Shown here: positions 31,098-62,353 of the stretch, piece after piece
Layout: every line of letters begins with the position of its first letter
How positions within the stretch are numbered: the first letter of the stretch is position 1
Translations under genes and position numbers: made by a program
DNA from: a virus
Length of the DNA: 64,000 nucleotides
Reading direction: 5' to 3' (one strand)
IMG/VR virus record: IMGVR_UViG_3300017963_000232
Location: 1 to 64,000 of that record
Notes under the pieces: model-generated
The model's input: only the letters and a program-made list of their open reading frames with translations
What the model was told of the DNA's origin: nothing
The model's database searches: none

Positions 31098-31985
31098 ATG
31101 CGAGTCCCAATTTCTTTAATGGTCATCACGTGCCTGCTAGTGCTCTTTTTTGGAATCTTTGCAGCACAACCGAGTAACTCGGAACCGGCTATACTAGAGA
31201 CCTACCCGCCGGTCTGTGACGCCACCGACGTTTACGCGGACGCGCTCCCGCAAACACTATTCAATGTGGAAGAGATCCCCGCCGAGAAACCAGAAGTCCT
31301 GTTTCCCAAAGATGACGACGTCAAACTCATCGGAAGGCTGACGCGCGGCGTAAAGAAAATCGCCAAGAAGAAGGGTGGCGGTAACTGGTGGTACTGTGGG
31401 CGCATAGTGCAACCTGAGAAGGAAGATGACTTAGCCTTGGAGTGGGCGTACCGTATCGCCTACCTGGCGTGGGAGTACACAGACCGAGGGAGTGATAACG
31501 GTATCACCATCAACCCCTGGGGTATCTTCGGGGTTATCTCTAACGAGACAGGGTTCGATAAGTGCGCACTCGGTCCGTGGCCCAGGAAATGGGCGTACGC
31601 CAACGGTACCATGAAGCAACGTGGCCGTTGCCTGTCCCACACCTATGCTGACATCAAGAAGACCATGACACACCCTCGGGGCATAGAGCGCTGGAAGACA
31701 GCCGGTATCGACGCAGCGCCCCTCCACCAGCTGTGGAGGTGTAATGAAAAAGGGATGTGTAAGCCGAAATTCAACAGTCGTGACCCCCTCCCGCCCATCA
31801 CGCTAGATGAAGTCTTCTCCCTCGGTAAAGGATTCGAGTACGGCGTGAGGAAGATGAAGAAGGACTCCATAGACTTCAAGACTGACCGCCCATGGATGTA
31901 CTGGCCAGGATACCGGTCCGAGAGATACGACAAGAAGGTCGTCCGCTGGGCTCGCATGGGAGGAGCCACAGAGGAAGAGATCTGA
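31098..31985 (+). CDS. Secreted transglycosylase-like (SLT-fold) protein
   Basis: A 295-residue protein starting at the ATG at 31098 with AAGGAGG upstream; an in-frame ATG 39 bases earlier lacks a ribosome site. Residues 5-25 form a membrane or signal segment (ISLMVITCLLVLFFGIFAA). Residues 135-155 (INPWGIFGVISNETGFDKC) fit the start of a lysozyme-like SLT domain, with E150 the likely catalytic acid. Cysteines pair in number, fitting export. It may cut peptidoglycan from the periplasm, as a lysis or DNA-entry function. The SLT call is by pattern only. Confidence 0.62.
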   Translation: MRVPISLMVITCLLVLFFGIFAAQPSNSEPAILETYPPVCDATDVYADALPQTLFNVEEIPAEKPEVLFPKDDDVKLIGRLTRGVKKIAKKKGGGNWWYCGRIVQPEKEDDLALEWAYRIAYLAWEYTDRGSDNGITINPWGIFGVISNETGFDKCALGPWPRKWAYANGTMKQRGRCLSHTYADIKKTMTHPRGIERWKTAGIDAAPLHQLWRCNEKGMCKPKFNSRDPLPPITLDEVFSLGKGFEYGVRKMKKDSIDFKTDRPWMYWPGYRSERYDKKVVRWARMGGATEEEI

Positions 31986-32713
31986 CACACTAGGCCGCAT
32001 ATATGCGAATTCTCCCTGTTACAGGGAGGGCCTTTCGCAGCCCCCTTCGGGGGCTCGAGGGACTGAGCTCGTAACGCGTTTCCACCGTTCTGATGATGAA
32101 GCGCGCTAAAGACCCGAGAGTGACAGCTAGTGCGTATTTACCGGAGGGGACCCTAACCACTGGGCACTTTTTCACGACCAGCGTGAATCACGGAGATACT
32201 CTGTGGGCCTTCTCGCGAGCTCCGAGCAGCTCGCGTAGGTCAAGTACTGTCCGCCGGACCAGGTCCGGGCGGCCAGGAATCCAGCCAGCAGGGAGGACCC
32301 CTCTCCTCACTGGGATCAATCAATGCAAATGAGAGAAGTCTCAGCTACTGAGACAGGGTCTCTTCTCGCTTCGCGAGAGAAGACCATGGAAGCTCAGCTC
32401 GAGCTCGCCACCGACGGGCCCGAGGCGGAGCTGCAGGTGAAGAGCGATCACAAACAAACTAGCCAGTGAGAAATCTATCAAGTTGCTTGGATGCGTTTAC
32501 TAGGCGCAATTCCGAGGTACTCGGAAACGACGCGGCGCCGAGAGAGACTCGGCAGCACGCGTCGCCGGTGGTGGCCGCGGCTATCACTGAAACTTGTCCT
32601 GGAGCAGCTCAGCTCGAGCAGGCGAACGTGGCGACACAGCAAGCAACGCTTTTCCCTTCAAAGAAGGCTTAAACTCTGTTAACGTGGCTTAAGCTTTTAG
32701 AGGAGTACAATCC
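31986..32713 (+). ncRNA. Giant structured non-coding RNA candidate (GOLLD/ROOL-like in character)
   Basis: About 0.7 kb with no convincing coding frame but dense perfect hairpins on one strand: 31996-32007, 32012-32028 (CTCCCTG/CAGGGAG) enclosed by 31992-31996/32029-32033, 32040-32054 (C-rich stem with TTC loop), 32171-32187, 32189-32205, 32214-32235 (8 bp), 32251-32272, 32338-32354, 32357-32385, 32510-32526 (7 bp), 32528-32564 (two stacked helices CGACGCG and GCCGAG), 32655-32667. It ends with GCTTAA/TTAAGC (32667-32694) followed by TTTT. Small loops, repeated purine-rich linkers and size fit the phage-borne giant ornate RNAs. Class is not assignable by eye. Strand is inferred from the flanking plus-strand genes. 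Confidence 0.68.
32667..32698 (+). terminator. Possible 3' end hairpin of the structured RNA
   Basis: GCTTAA (32667-32672) pairs with TTAAGC (32689-32694), followed by TTTT. The stem is A/T-rich and short, so this is a weak terminator or processing site. Confidence 0.4.
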
Positions 32714-33043
32714 ATGGACGACGCAGACATCAAGTTCGGAAATCGTGAGGCACTCGTAGGGTACGTAGAGACGGATTCCGGAGGCATCGTCATCGCAGAC
32801 GGTGTGTGGGGGGACGAGTTCCCTACTGTCTCCCAAGACCGCGTACACCTGAATCTCAATCTCGAAAAAGGACGCATACCCGTGTTCGGATTCTCTAAAG
32901 GCGGCAAACGCTACCTCTTACTGTCCCTCGACGACACTGAGGCTATCCCAGCCATCGAGGGAATTGTAGACGTGACGGACCTTCCTAAAGAGGAAAAAGG
33001 CAATGCGGATGCGGATCGTAGGGATCACCGGGAAGCAGAATAG
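32714..33043 (+). CDS. Hypothetical protein upstream of dNMP kinase
   Basis: A 109-residue protein with ribosome site AGAGGAG. Beta-rich centre (REALVGYVETDSGGIVIADG, KRYLLLSLDDTEAIP), charged C-terminus. It overlaps the dNMP kinase start by 41 bases. The C-terminal charged tail is where the overlap lies. Function unknown. Confidence 0.72.
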   Translation: MDDADIKFGNREALVGYVETDSGGIVIADGVWGDEFPTVSQDRVHLNLNLEKGRIPVFGFSKGGKRYLLLSLDDTEAIPAIEGIVDVTDLPKEEKGNADADRRDHREAE

Positions 33044-33602
33044 TGGTAAGGACACGCTGGCAAGCGCGTTCATCGAAAATGACTTTTTGAAGATGGCGTT
33101 TGCCGACCCGCTGAAAGACGTCATTCACCGGATGTTCAACATCCCCAAGACGGTGTTGTGGGGTCCTAGCGAAAACCGGGATACGCACACACGGATGATC
33201 CTTCAGACTCTGGGGACAGATTACGCACGAGGTATCGACCCTGAAGTCTGGATCAAACGGACTACGGAGAGGATCCGAGAAGTAGCTACTCGACGACGAG
33301 ATCCTCTCGAGCGATGCGTCGTCCCTTTAGGGGACAAAGAGCTACGCATAGTGGTTCCGGACGTCCGGTTCTCGAACGAAGCGGAAGCCCTCAGAAACTT
33401 CGCCCCTGACGCCGTACTGATTCGAGTCCACCGACCAGACTCCGAAGAAGGAAAAGCAGTGGAGACCTGCACGCACATTTCAGAAACGGAAATGGACACC
33501 ATCCCTTCTGAGATGTACAAGTACGACTTGCAGAACGTAGGGACACTCGAAGAGTTTCAGACCGCTGCACGAGATGTAGTGCGTAAGGTACTCGCGTCAT
33601 GA
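33003..33602 (+). CDS. Deoxynucleoside monophosphate kinase
   Basis: A 199-residue P-loop kinase. Walker A lies at residues 7-17 (GITGKQNSGKD), followed by the nucleotide-monophosphate-binding region (FADPLKDVIHRMF, 34-46; RMILQTLGTDYARG, about 65-78) and a lid-like segment (VVPDVRFSNEAEAL). This matches T4 gp1-type dNMP kinases found in many large phages, which phosphorylate dNMPs to supply DNA synthesis. Its stop overlaps the next gene (TCATGA). Length normal. Confidence 0.85.
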   Translation: MRMRIVGITGKQNSGKDTLASAFIENDFLKMAFADPLKDVIHRMFNIPKTVLWGPSENRDTHTRMILQTLGTDYARGIDPEVWIKRTTERIREVATRRRDPLERCVVPLGDKELRIVVPDVRFSNEAEALRNFAPDAVLIRVHRPDSEEGKAVETCTHISETEMDTIPSEMYKYDLQNVGTLEEFQTAARDVVRKVLAS

Positions 33603-59606: not shown

Positions 59607-59620
59607 CTCACGGCCTCCTT

Positions 59621-59628
59621 AGTTGAAA
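59621..59628 (-). promoter_or_regulatory. Leader motif TTTCAACT before 59606
   Basis: Minus TTTCAACT then AAGGAGG close to the start at 59606; same octamer as at 45096 and 51816. Confidence 0.5.
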
Positions 59629-59650
59629 GGTAGAGTTACCTCCTTCTACC

Positions 59651-59692
59651 AAAAAAAGAACCATTACCGCACTATTGCGATATCTGGTTCTT
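59651..59692 (-). terminator. Intrinsic terminator
   Basis: Minus: AAGAACCA, inner CGCA-ATAG-TGCG hairpin, TGGTTCTT, then a T-run followed by GG. Between 59851 and 59606. The ~150 bases between 59698 and 59850 hold no gene that I could support. Confidence 0.85.
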
Positions 59693-59850
59693 CTCGCGGA
59701 GCTCACTCTCTCCACTTCCTCCTACGCCCACCAGAGGCGGTACCGACCTAGAGGCTGTCAGTACTAGCGTTGACCACCACGCTGAGGACGGAGCATTGGC
59801 TTACGCCGTGAGGTTGCCCGTGGACCCTGTGAGGAAGCGCCTGGGGGTCG

Positions 59851-60260: not shown

Positions 60261-61415
60261 TTAGGACTGAGTCCATTGGACGATGTCGTCCGAGGTGGGA
60301 CCGTAGCTGACGTAGGCTTCCGAGGCGTCAACGGTATCAATGATTCTACGCATGAACTGTTCCACGTTTGGAAAAGCGTGAATACGCCCCCCGATAACCG
60401 CTCGGAACTTCCCAGCCTCGAGGAGCAAGTCCATACAATTCACAACGAGGTTGACCCGGCGAGTCCCCACAGCTTTAGACGTGGCATACTCCAAGAGGTC
60501 AAGGTCGAGATACCCTCTACGGAACCTACCCTGCGGCCCGTCGTCGTAGCTGCGCTCGTAAGGATTTACGAAAGTAGTCGAGTCAGAAAACTCATGGGTC
60601 ATCGGACCCGCTCCGTGGCGTGTCTGATACGCCCGGGTGACGAGCCAGATCTCGCTGGGAGCGCTGCCATTGCGGAGCTCGAGAATATTTTTGAGCCCTG
60701 TAGAAGACGGCGTAACATGGGGAAAGAATCCAATCTCTTCGTCAAGGAGCAGCCCCTGGGAACCTTCGTAGATAGTGACGCTGGGAGGGTCGGGATGAAA
60801 AAGCCCAATATCCACAGACTCTACACGCTCCTCCACCACGTACTGACACGACGTCAAGAACGCGTCAGTGTCCACTCTTCCAATGGGGTCATCGTCGTAG
60901 AACTGTCGAATAAGATCGAGCTTCATACGAAGGGCAGTAGGGTGGTAGATATCCTCGAAATGCAGGAGGTAACCAAGACCCTCTCTTCGAAGAGTGGCGA
61001 AGATACCTGCCCCGCAGGTTCCGTGCTTCGACACGTCTTCCCAGTGCGCATTCCACGCCAAGTCGTAAGGCGTGATGACCGGGCAACGCGGGTCAATACG
61101 GAGACGTGGGGGCTTCGGACACTTGAGCTTGAGGTCGTCGAGCTCATTGATGAGCGACACAGGATTCACGGGACAATAGTGCGTCCAATTGGTTAACGCA
61201 CCACGCAGTGACCCGCTACCGAAATGGGAAAATACGTGTTCCACCTCTTCGGTCTTTGGGAGCACTACGTGATGCGCTGCTTGCGGTCCTCCGGAAAACC
61301 GGAACACCACGGGATAATCGGTCGCGTTGTCGCAGAGCCAGTCCACGACGTGACCTTTGCCCTCGTCCCCGAAACCTGCGCCGATAACGGCGTGGCTGCC
61401 GGTGATAGCTCTCAT
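60261..61415 (-). CDS. Adenylosuccinate synthetase family (PurA/PurZ-like)
   Basis: A 384-residue protein starting at the ATG at 61415 (TGATG with the VWA stop). GFGDEGKG (14-21) is the P-loop, with D17 kept as in PurA; FRFSGGPQAAHH (38-49) aligns with PurA GGHNAGHT, keeping the catalytic His48 but changing the neighbouring residues as in phage homologues. EGSQGLLLD and TRAYQTRHGAGP follow. Length is well below bacterial PurA (about 430). PurA makes succinyl-AMP; PurZ homologues make a 2-aminoadenine precursor in phages with Z-DNA (not the helix form). Which is true here cannot be read by eye. Confidence 0.84.
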   Translation of the reverse strand: MRAITGSHAVIGAGFGDEGKGHVVDWLCDNATDYPVVFRFSGGPQAAHHVVLPKTEEVEHVFSHFGSGSLRGALTNWTHYCPVNPVSLINELDDLKLKCPKPPRLRIDPRCPVITPYDLAWNAHWEDVSKHGTCGAGIFATLRREGLGYLLHFEDIYHPTALRMKLDLIRQFYDDDPIGRVDTDAFLTSCQYVVEERVESVDIGLFHPDPPSVTIYEGSQGLLLDEEIGFFPHVTPSSTGLKNILELRNGSAPSEIWLVTRAYQTRHGAGPMTHEFSDSTTFVNPYERSYDDGPQGRFRRGYLDLDLLEYATSKAVGTRRVNLVVNCMDLLLEAGKFRAVIGGRIHAFPNVEQFMRRIIDTVDASEAYVSYGPTSDDIVQWTQS

Positions 61416-62353
61416 CACATCATCTCGATATTGCCCGTGCCGGTCTTCTTCTCGGACTTGGGCTTCTTGACCGTCTCATCGTTCTCGGGCAGTGGGCGCA
61501 CCCCCTGGACCTCCAGGATCTTGTTGGCGATGGTGGCAGCCACGTCGTCGTGATGCTGCGAGGTGAGCAACGCATCGGGCCCGATGAGGGACGACCACTT
61601 CTGGCGGCTATCCGGCTGCCGTCCTCGCGGGGTCTCCTGGATGTGGATGTGGAAGACCTCGTAGGTCTCGCGAGCTCGCTTGAGCAGCTCCTTGGAGACC
61701 TCGTCCCCGGTCTGCGCGCCTTCGCCCATGATCTGCTTCAGCGCCTCCTTGGGAAAGTCCATCAGCGGGGGCTCGTCCCCAATGGTGAAGAGGATACCCT
61801 TCTTCTGCCGCTTCTCGAAGCAGTCGATGGAGGTGTGGTTGGCGGCGAAGTACCAAGCGAGCGGGTAGCTCTCCCCGGCGTTGCCACCCCCGCCACCCTC
61901 GAGAAAGATGGACGTGAGCCACTTGTCGAGGAGCTCGTCGCTGGACTCGAACTGGCCGACCTGCAGCGGGGCCGTGTCGTAATTGTGGTCCCCGATGGCC
62001 AAGAACATGACCTGAGGGTCCTCGACACCCGCTTGGATGATCTTGTCCATGAGCTTGGGGAAGCCCTCAGAGACGAGCTGGTGCGGCACCTGCCCCATCG
62101 AACCGGTAACGTCGAGGGCGATGATGATGGCGAAGGAGTTGGGATGCTCCTCGCTGTCTCTGGACTCGCGGATGTCGACGCCCACCGACCGCATCTCGTG
62201 GTGGACCTGACGCTGCGTGAAGACGTCGTGAATCGCCTTTCGCTTGTAGGTCGACATGTCGGTACCCGTGCTCGAGGCCACGCTGTGGGTGGCGATACCT
62301 CGGTCGACGCTGCGAGAAACGGCGCTGTTGTAGCTGTAGCTTCCTCCTCCCAT
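61415..62353 (-). CDS. VWA-domain protein
   Basis: A 312-residue protein from the ATG at 62353. The N-terminus is Gly/Ser/Tyr-rich (GGGSYSYNSAVSRSVD). Residues 75-290 are a von Willebrand A-like domain with a MIDAS motif DVTGS (81-85) and later TIGDEPP. It may be a metal-dependent binding or assembly protein. Coupled at both ends by TGATG to the coiled-coil gene and the PurA-like gene. G+C is higher than in the bulk of the window. Confidence 0.78.
   Translation of the reverse strand: MGGGSYSYNSAVSRSVDRGIATHSVASSTGTDMSTYKRKAIHDVFTQRQVHHEMRSVGVDIRESRDSEEHPNSFAIIIALDVTGSMGQVPHQLVSEGFPKLMDKIIQAGVEDPQVMFLAIGDHNYDTAPLQVGQFESSDELLDKWLTSIFLEGGGGGNAGESYPLAWYFAANHTSIDCFEKRQKKGILFTIGDEPPLMDFPKEALKQIMGEGAQTGDEVSKELLKRARETYEVFHIHIQETPRGRQPDSRQKWSSLIGPDALLTSQHHDDVAATIANKILEVQGVRPLPENDETVKKPKSEKKTGTGNIEMM

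Follow-up and report, generated by a model that had tools for sequence, protein, structure and literature searches.

The window analysed here comprises the first 64,000 nucleotides of an 86-kb IMG/VR phage record (IMGVR_UViG_3300017963_000232). At 31986-32713, bounded by the TGA of 31983-31985 and the ATG of 32714, it contains a gap between a gene for a secreted protein and a gene for a 109-aa protein, with a deoxynucleoside monophosphate (dNMP) kinase gene next in line (Table 1). For the upstream gene, ATG 31098 is the most likely start, rather than the GTG 31059 of the mechanical frame list; its product has no Pfam match, and the AlphaFold model of the 109-aa protein is of low confidence (pLDDT 51). 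An earlier note on this DNA described the gap as some 0.73 kb free of genes, which is borne out, and as holding no reading frame of useful length or quality. The latter stands in so far as the longest open frame within the gap is at most 79 aa, none of the frames is conserved and most have poor codon usage, but it does not hold for a 48-aa frame at 32323-32469 (+), inside the domain termed module C in Table 1, whose codon usage resembles that of a gene (0.35 bits per codon). This frame has no conserved counterpart in the homologous gap of the related phage described below, and the best match of any gap frame to that homologous gap has E = 0.02.

Table 1. Genes and predicted structural features at the gap (positions in the window).
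Feature	Positions	Strand	Details and basis
Upstream gene, secreted protein	31098..31985	+	start ATG 31098 behind AAGGAGG; sequence
Module A, 145 nt	31988..32132	+	closing helix CACTAG/CTAGTG, 6 bp; z -3.2
Module A, parts	31988..32132	+	closing helix, H1, triloop hairpin, two-tier helix H3, long arm H4; span-limited fold
Module A, 17-nt hairpin	32012..32028	+	CTCCCTG-TTA-CAGGGAG; fold and hairpin count
Module B, 162 nt	32143..32304	+	closing helix GGAGGGG/CCCCTCT, 7 bp; z -3.9
Module B, 17-nt hairpin	32189..32205	+	CACGGAG-ATA-CTCTGTG; fold and hairpin count
Module C, 165 nt	32306..32470	+	closing helix CTCACTGG/CCAGTGAG, 8 bp; z -3.5
Module C, 17-nt hairpin	32338..32354	+	GTCTCAG-CTA-CTGAGAC; fold and hairpin count
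Module D, 166 nt, holds two-tier helix 32528-32564	32482..32647	+	closing helix GTTGCTTG/CAAGCAAC, 8 bp; z -5.4
Module D, 17-nt hairpin	32510..32526	+	TTCCGAG-GTA-CTCGGAA; fold and hairpin count
3' hairpin, directly ahead of the ribosome-binding site of the next gene	32656..32703	+	GAAGGCTTAA...TTAAGCTTTT; span-limited fold
Downstream 109-aa gene	32714..33043	+	35% over 66 aa to the counterpart in the relative, E 6e-19
Deoxynucleoside monophosphate kinase gene, next in both phages	33003..33602	+	Pfam DNMK

Thirteen non-overlapping hairpins of at least 6 bp (loops of 3-8) were counted in the gap, in line with the earlier count of at least twelve; 300 dinucleotide shuffles averaged 5.1 and never exceeded 11. 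Triloop hairpins with stems of at least 7 bp number seven (shuffle mean 0.42, maximum 3, n = 300), which agrees with the several perfect stems of 7-8 bp already remarked on, and four triloop hairpins have the form G-NUA-C (mean 0.02, maximum 1, n = 300); many of the gap hairpins are exactly 17 nt long. The two-tier helix that had been pointed out at 32528-32564 was likewise recovered, its outer helix with pair probabilities of at least 0.96, and it belongs to module D.

The folding energy of the + strand of the gap (-305 kcal/mol) corresponds to z = -6.37, with none of 20 shuffles as good, and that of the - strand to z = -4.93. Relative to shuffles the + strand outfolds the - strand in both phages, with z values of -6.4 vs -4.9 in the window and -9.4 vs -7.7 for the gap of the relative. 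The unrestricted minimum-energy structure differs from the modular fold in that long-range helices link modules A and C. When the pair span is limited to 180 nt, four consecutive domains followed by a 3' hairpin are obtained at an energy of -301.8, less than 5 kcal/mol above the -306.5 found with a 400-nt limit. Among 100 shuffles folded in this way, five had three domains of at least 120 nt with a closing helix of at least 6 bp, and none had four. Since the unrestricted fold joins A and C, the modular fold leans on the homologue and not on energy alone. The structure in the gap is real, and as modelled here it is not one giant RNA but a tandem array of four modules; this ordering of the hairpins into four near-equal modules, each with its own closing helix, had been overlooked at first reading.

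The modules have in common the order closing helix, first hairpin, 17-nt triloop hairpin, two-tier helix and further arms, with a first hairpin that is weak in module C and is preceded in module B by an extra one, and they are separated by short linkers of 1-11 nt. The closing helix of module C has pair probabilities of 0.98-1.0 with the span limit, and that of module D 0.75-0.84 without and 0.98-1.0 with it. The 17-nt hairpin lies 18-39 nt inside the 5' strand of the closing helix and consists of 7 bp and a triloop NUA, in the loop context AG-NUA-CU in three of the four copies. The four stems differ in sequence, yet all 28 cells pair, with 8 two-sided changes against 2.5 in shuffles. The hairpin at 32656-32703 is weakly terminator-like, and terminator prediction did not recognise a terminator in it. 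A further hairpin match, at 31170 of the window, falls inside a reading frame and was set aside, as were the single-hairpin matches in the unrelated loci inspected, which also fall inside reading frames.

The similarity searches were blank. No Rfam model reached its gathering score in the window or the homologous loci, and a lax scan (E up to 10) of the gap and of the gap in the relative gave nothing credible and no GOLLD or ROOL; the Rfam models of GOLLD, ROOL, OLE and HEARO, proposed earlier as a check, did not match. This places the element in no recognised Rfam family, as the earlier note had allowed. Comparison of the gap with phages and plasmids by blastn gave no real match (a 43-nt match with E 0.2 was inspected and not considered real), and an exact 18-mer from the gap had no occurrence. 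The two flanking proteins had no relatives in IMG/VR and the phage collection, whereas a search with the dNMP kinase gave 42 distant loci, of which those searched held no array. Two structural proteins of the window phage have no close named relatives, and a 17-kb contig that is near-identical to the virus of the window and belongs to the same population (IMGVR_UViG_3300029267_002127) ends before the gap.

Since these searches were blank and the virus isolated, a pattern was built from the spaced loops of modules B, C and D, with flexible spacing and with no requirement for stem pairing. The three-loop pattern matches the window once, against a chance expectation of 0.00, and it matched 21 viral stretches and, with narrower spacing, 13 bacterial ones. 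All three stems were paired (7 of 7 each) in one stretch only among these, L138; the other 20 viral and the 13 bacterial stretches, in which the stems are not all paired, were rejected as homologues. The relative was hit on the opposite strand, because a UAA hairpin read backwards presents UUA. RNAs of this sort can escape sequence search and Rfam, yet spaced loop motifs can find them.

The homologue L138 is part of a 95,498-bp IMG/VR phage record (G001). The two phages are collinear over 23 reading frames, most of them with 26-45% protein identity, and the gene order of the relative is the same as in the window: three upstream genes and an SLT transglycosylase precede the gap, and a 93-aa protein, the kinase and further genes follow it. 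The secreted SLT transglycosylase (Pfam SLT, E 2.3e-9) takes the place of the secreted protein of the window, the 93-aa protein is the counterpart of the 109-aa protein (identity in Table 1), and the kinase counterpart is 36% identical (tblastn). The gap in the relative, 513 nt long and located at about 19.36-19.87 kb of G001, is made up of three modules (148, 148 and 150 nt) whose closing helices measure 18, 20 and 15 bp, each module carrying the 17-nt hairpin with AG-UAA-CU on the gene strand. No similarity between the two gaps is detected by blastn, and what is conserved is therefore the place, the module size, the domain order and the hairpin. The features by which the array family is defined, namely a closing helix of its own for each module, a 17-nt triloop hairpin 15-39 nt inside it and a syntenic place, were found in both the window and the relative, so that the family rests on two phages. 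That the array has been kept in place although the proteins have for the most part diverged to this extent indicates that the element is under selection.

Further arrays were found in both records. The second array of the relative, 55 kb away from the first, has modules of 127 and 125 nt with closing helices of 13 and 7 bp and the same hairpin, and the module copy number varies in all between 4, 3 and 2. Its first module (L162 4352-4390, G001) overlaps the end of the upstream frame, the TAA stop of which is the UAA of the hairpin loop. In the record of the window phage (G000) the gene-poor end at 85,839-86,218 (-), outside the window, contains the hairpin TAGACAG-UAA-CTGTCTA, and at 85862-86044 (-) a 183-nt domain with a perfect 23-bp closing helix and an imperfect triloop hairpin 25 nt inside. 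The 23-bp inverted repeat of this domain encloses 137 nt with nested helices of 8, 12 and 9 bp and lies less than 180 bases from the record end. The second arrays of both phages are upstream of a homologous small gene (84242-84748 in G000; 75157 in G001), with different intervening genes. Neither record has, outside its array elements, perfect inverted repeats with arms of 14 bp or more set about 60-200 nt apart, and the fully paired AG-NWA-CU hairpins in the two records, nine sites, are all in arrays; 25 distinct hairpins of this kind were found in 3 Mb of strand of the other sequence compared.

Compensatory change, which the earlier note had proposed as a check, is found across the module copies and the homologue. 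Every one of the 70 cells in the ten module hairpins is a standard pair; two-sided changes number 21 (shuffles 4.9), and six of the seven pairs vary on both sides. These counts are to be read in the light of the motif or filter used to find some of the modules, which fixed part of their pairs, and of the fact that the cells are not independent events, since the modules of one array are paralogues. In L138 the search pattern left about 15 cells free, and all of these pair. The covariation score of the ten hairpins is 0.902, that of shuffles 0.148 and that of slid alignments at most 0.164. Only the loop-closing G-C and the last A of the loop are invariant; the loop is -UAAC- in six of the ten modules, the five of the relative and one in the phage of the window, and -NUAC- in the four of the window. 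The earlier idea of a giant structured non-coding RNA is in this way upheld in part, as a long structured non-coding element with compensatory changes and a homologue is present, but not as a single giant ornate RNA. We consider it highly probable that the element is a conserved structured RNA of module-array architecture.

Read on the gene strand, all nine modules for which a closing helix is defined carry the hairpin close to the 5' closing strand, at a distance of 15-39 nt, and 67-113 nt away from the 3' one. This placement indicates that the + strand of the window equals the + strand of the relative and that both follow the gene direction, and the sense strand is thus favoured.

The array hairpin may be compared with several known RNA elements. 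The coat-protein operator of phage Qbeta is a small protein-binding hairpin with a UAA triloop and a decisive third A, but Qbeta is an RNA phage, and the array hairpin has no bulged A. The protein-sponge RNAs CsrB and RsmZ present one hairpin motif many times along the same molecule; the array motif differs in that it is not the GGA loop of CsrA and is set in modules of about 150 nt, not in short hairpins. The translational operator of gp43, the DNA polymerase of T4 and RB69, is a hairpin of 16-18 nt with a -UAAC- loop, the 3' AC of which is especially relevant (PMC3014915), and the array hairpin is similar in its 17 nt, in the -UAAC- of six modules, the four in the window having -NUAC- in its stead, and in the invariant A and C. 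These operators are single and precede one start codon, whereas the arrays present many copies on large scaffolds. Neither family B DNA polymerase (PF00136) nor the family A polymerase models gave a match in the two records, which may be incomplete, and the direct parallel to T4 gp43 therefore lacks its partner here, so that a binding partner would probably be another protein. Phage tRNA arrays are alike in having tandem folded units and, in part, in their spacing, but tRNA signatures are absent here, and ARAGORN finds neither tRNA nor tmRNA genes in the 86-kb record.

ROOL RNA is characterised by a homo-oligomeric cage. ROOL and GOLLD are large phage RNAs often found near tRNA islands, and many GOLLD RNAs exceed 800 nt (PMC12286853), while the record of the window is without tRNA and the gap is 0.73 kb. 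The similarity to these RNAs, to which the earlier note had likened the element, is that of large, heavily structured phage-borne non-coding RNAs of no known function (PMC12286853). The likening is not supported for the kind of RNA itself, since the gap has no match to their covariance models up to E = 10 and consists instead of similar modules, each of about 150 nt, that are arranged in tandem and vary in copy number. ROOL and GOLLD remain the nearest kind, and the tandem, copy-number-variable modules set the array family apart.

A loop that is kept on a drifting stem and repeated on divergent scaffolds makes a multivalent protein-binding RNA the most likely mechanism. The T4/RB69 polymerase operator and the Qbeta coat operator, two well-studied phage hairpins that bind protein through a closely similar loop, point the same way. 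Other explanations were weighed against it. The modules could form a small-RNA array organised like a tRNA array, in which the closing helices would be processing stalks and the modules would be cut out and work singly, for example as an adaptor, or as a decoy for a host enzyme. The separate tandem modules, their varying number and the short linkers in the window are in line with this, as are the closing helices of the first array of the relative, which are long, near-perfect and unrelated in sequence (15-20 bp), like rRNA processing stalks; modules C and D moreover run closing helix, 2 nt, hairpin, 1 nt and 17-nt arm, which resembles the succession of acceptor stem, D arm and anticodon arm. 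However, the 17-nt arm has no U33 of tRNA and places a G-C pair within the would-be anticodon loop, no T arm can be recognised in the 3' part of 67-113 nt, ARAGORN finds no tRNA, and the closing helices in the window are merely 6-8 bp, and we regard this explanation as rather unlikely. The processing of individual modules by RNase III is an attractive rival which is compatible with the protein-binding model. A GOLLD- or ROOL-like RNA could also associate with itself through loop-loop contacts to form a cage or ring. This would agree with the phage origin, the size of 0.5-0.7 kb and the heavy structure in common with ROOL and GOLLD (PMC12286853), and the conserved apical loops could serve as contacts. 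Such assembly appears decidedly improbable, as Rfam gives no match, there is no tRNA island, tandem repetition in variable copy number is not described for GOLLD or ROOL, and the UAA loops in the relative lack self-complementarity.

The stretch could also act as DNA in replication, packaging or recombination, its tandem inverted repeats forming cruciforms or single-stranded hairpins. The stems are nearly all Watson-Crick, with G-U in 2 of the 70 hairpin cells, a symmetric strand count over bridges (10 G-T vs 14 A-C) clearly favours neither strand, and one element with a perfect 23-bp closing repeat sits close to the record end. We find a DNA element improbable all the same, since each phage has two arrays at different sites whose orientation matches transcription, the domains are multibranched and not simple palindromes, two pairs in the 18-bp closing helix of the relative are G-U when read in the sense direction, and the stems, unlike operators or integrase sites, have no common sequence. 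A structured leader controlling the downstream 109-aa gene, as attenuator or autoregulated operator, is very improbable: the array stops 10 nt ahead of the ATG, part of the ribosome-binding site is paired within its last hairpin and the downstream gene is conserved together with the array, but the second arrays precede other genes, four copies exceed the need of an operator, and no solitary copies near other genes occur in the two records.

According to the protein-binding model, the gap would yield a non-coding RNA of about 650-700 nt with four tandem modules, transcribed in the direction of the neighbouring genes. Each module would form a multibranched domain with its own closing helix and display the 17-nt hairpin of 7 bp and triloop, NUA in the window and UAA in the arrays of the relative, on a stem whose other pairs vary in a compensating manner. 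One copy per module of a phage or host RNA-binding protein may bind the hairpin loop, and the array might then titrate that protein as a sponge or decoy, or gather several copies of it as a scaffold. RNase III could cut the long, near-perfect closing helices of the relative, by which single modules would be released. The whole of this statement, from the four-module sense-strand RNA to its multivalent protein binding, has in our estimate somewhat less than an even chance of being correct. It is an evenly balanced question whether the arrays represent a new class of phage non-coding RNA, in which variable tandem arrays of modules of about 125-165 nt, syntenic in position and alike only in fold and triloop hairpin, would be the modular platform to which an RNA-binding protein dedicated to them attaches. 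Repeated modules with one invariant hairpin loop are easier to work on than GOLLD or ROOL: one module, of about 150 nt, can be synthesised by itself for probing or as bait, with a loop mutant as the exact control.

Elsewhere in the window, 59607-59850 (-) is a second short non-coding stretch, with a 127-nt domain closed by CGCTTCCTC/GAGGAAGTG and followed by a canonical terminator at 59695-59653 (-); it is without the triloop hairpin and is a candidate small RNA. At 60261-61418 (-) there is an adenylosuccinate-synthetase-like gene, the closest phage matches of which are PurA/PurZ-like proteins of Mycobacterium phages (35%), and this likeness makes modified (diaminopurine) DNA possible in this phage.
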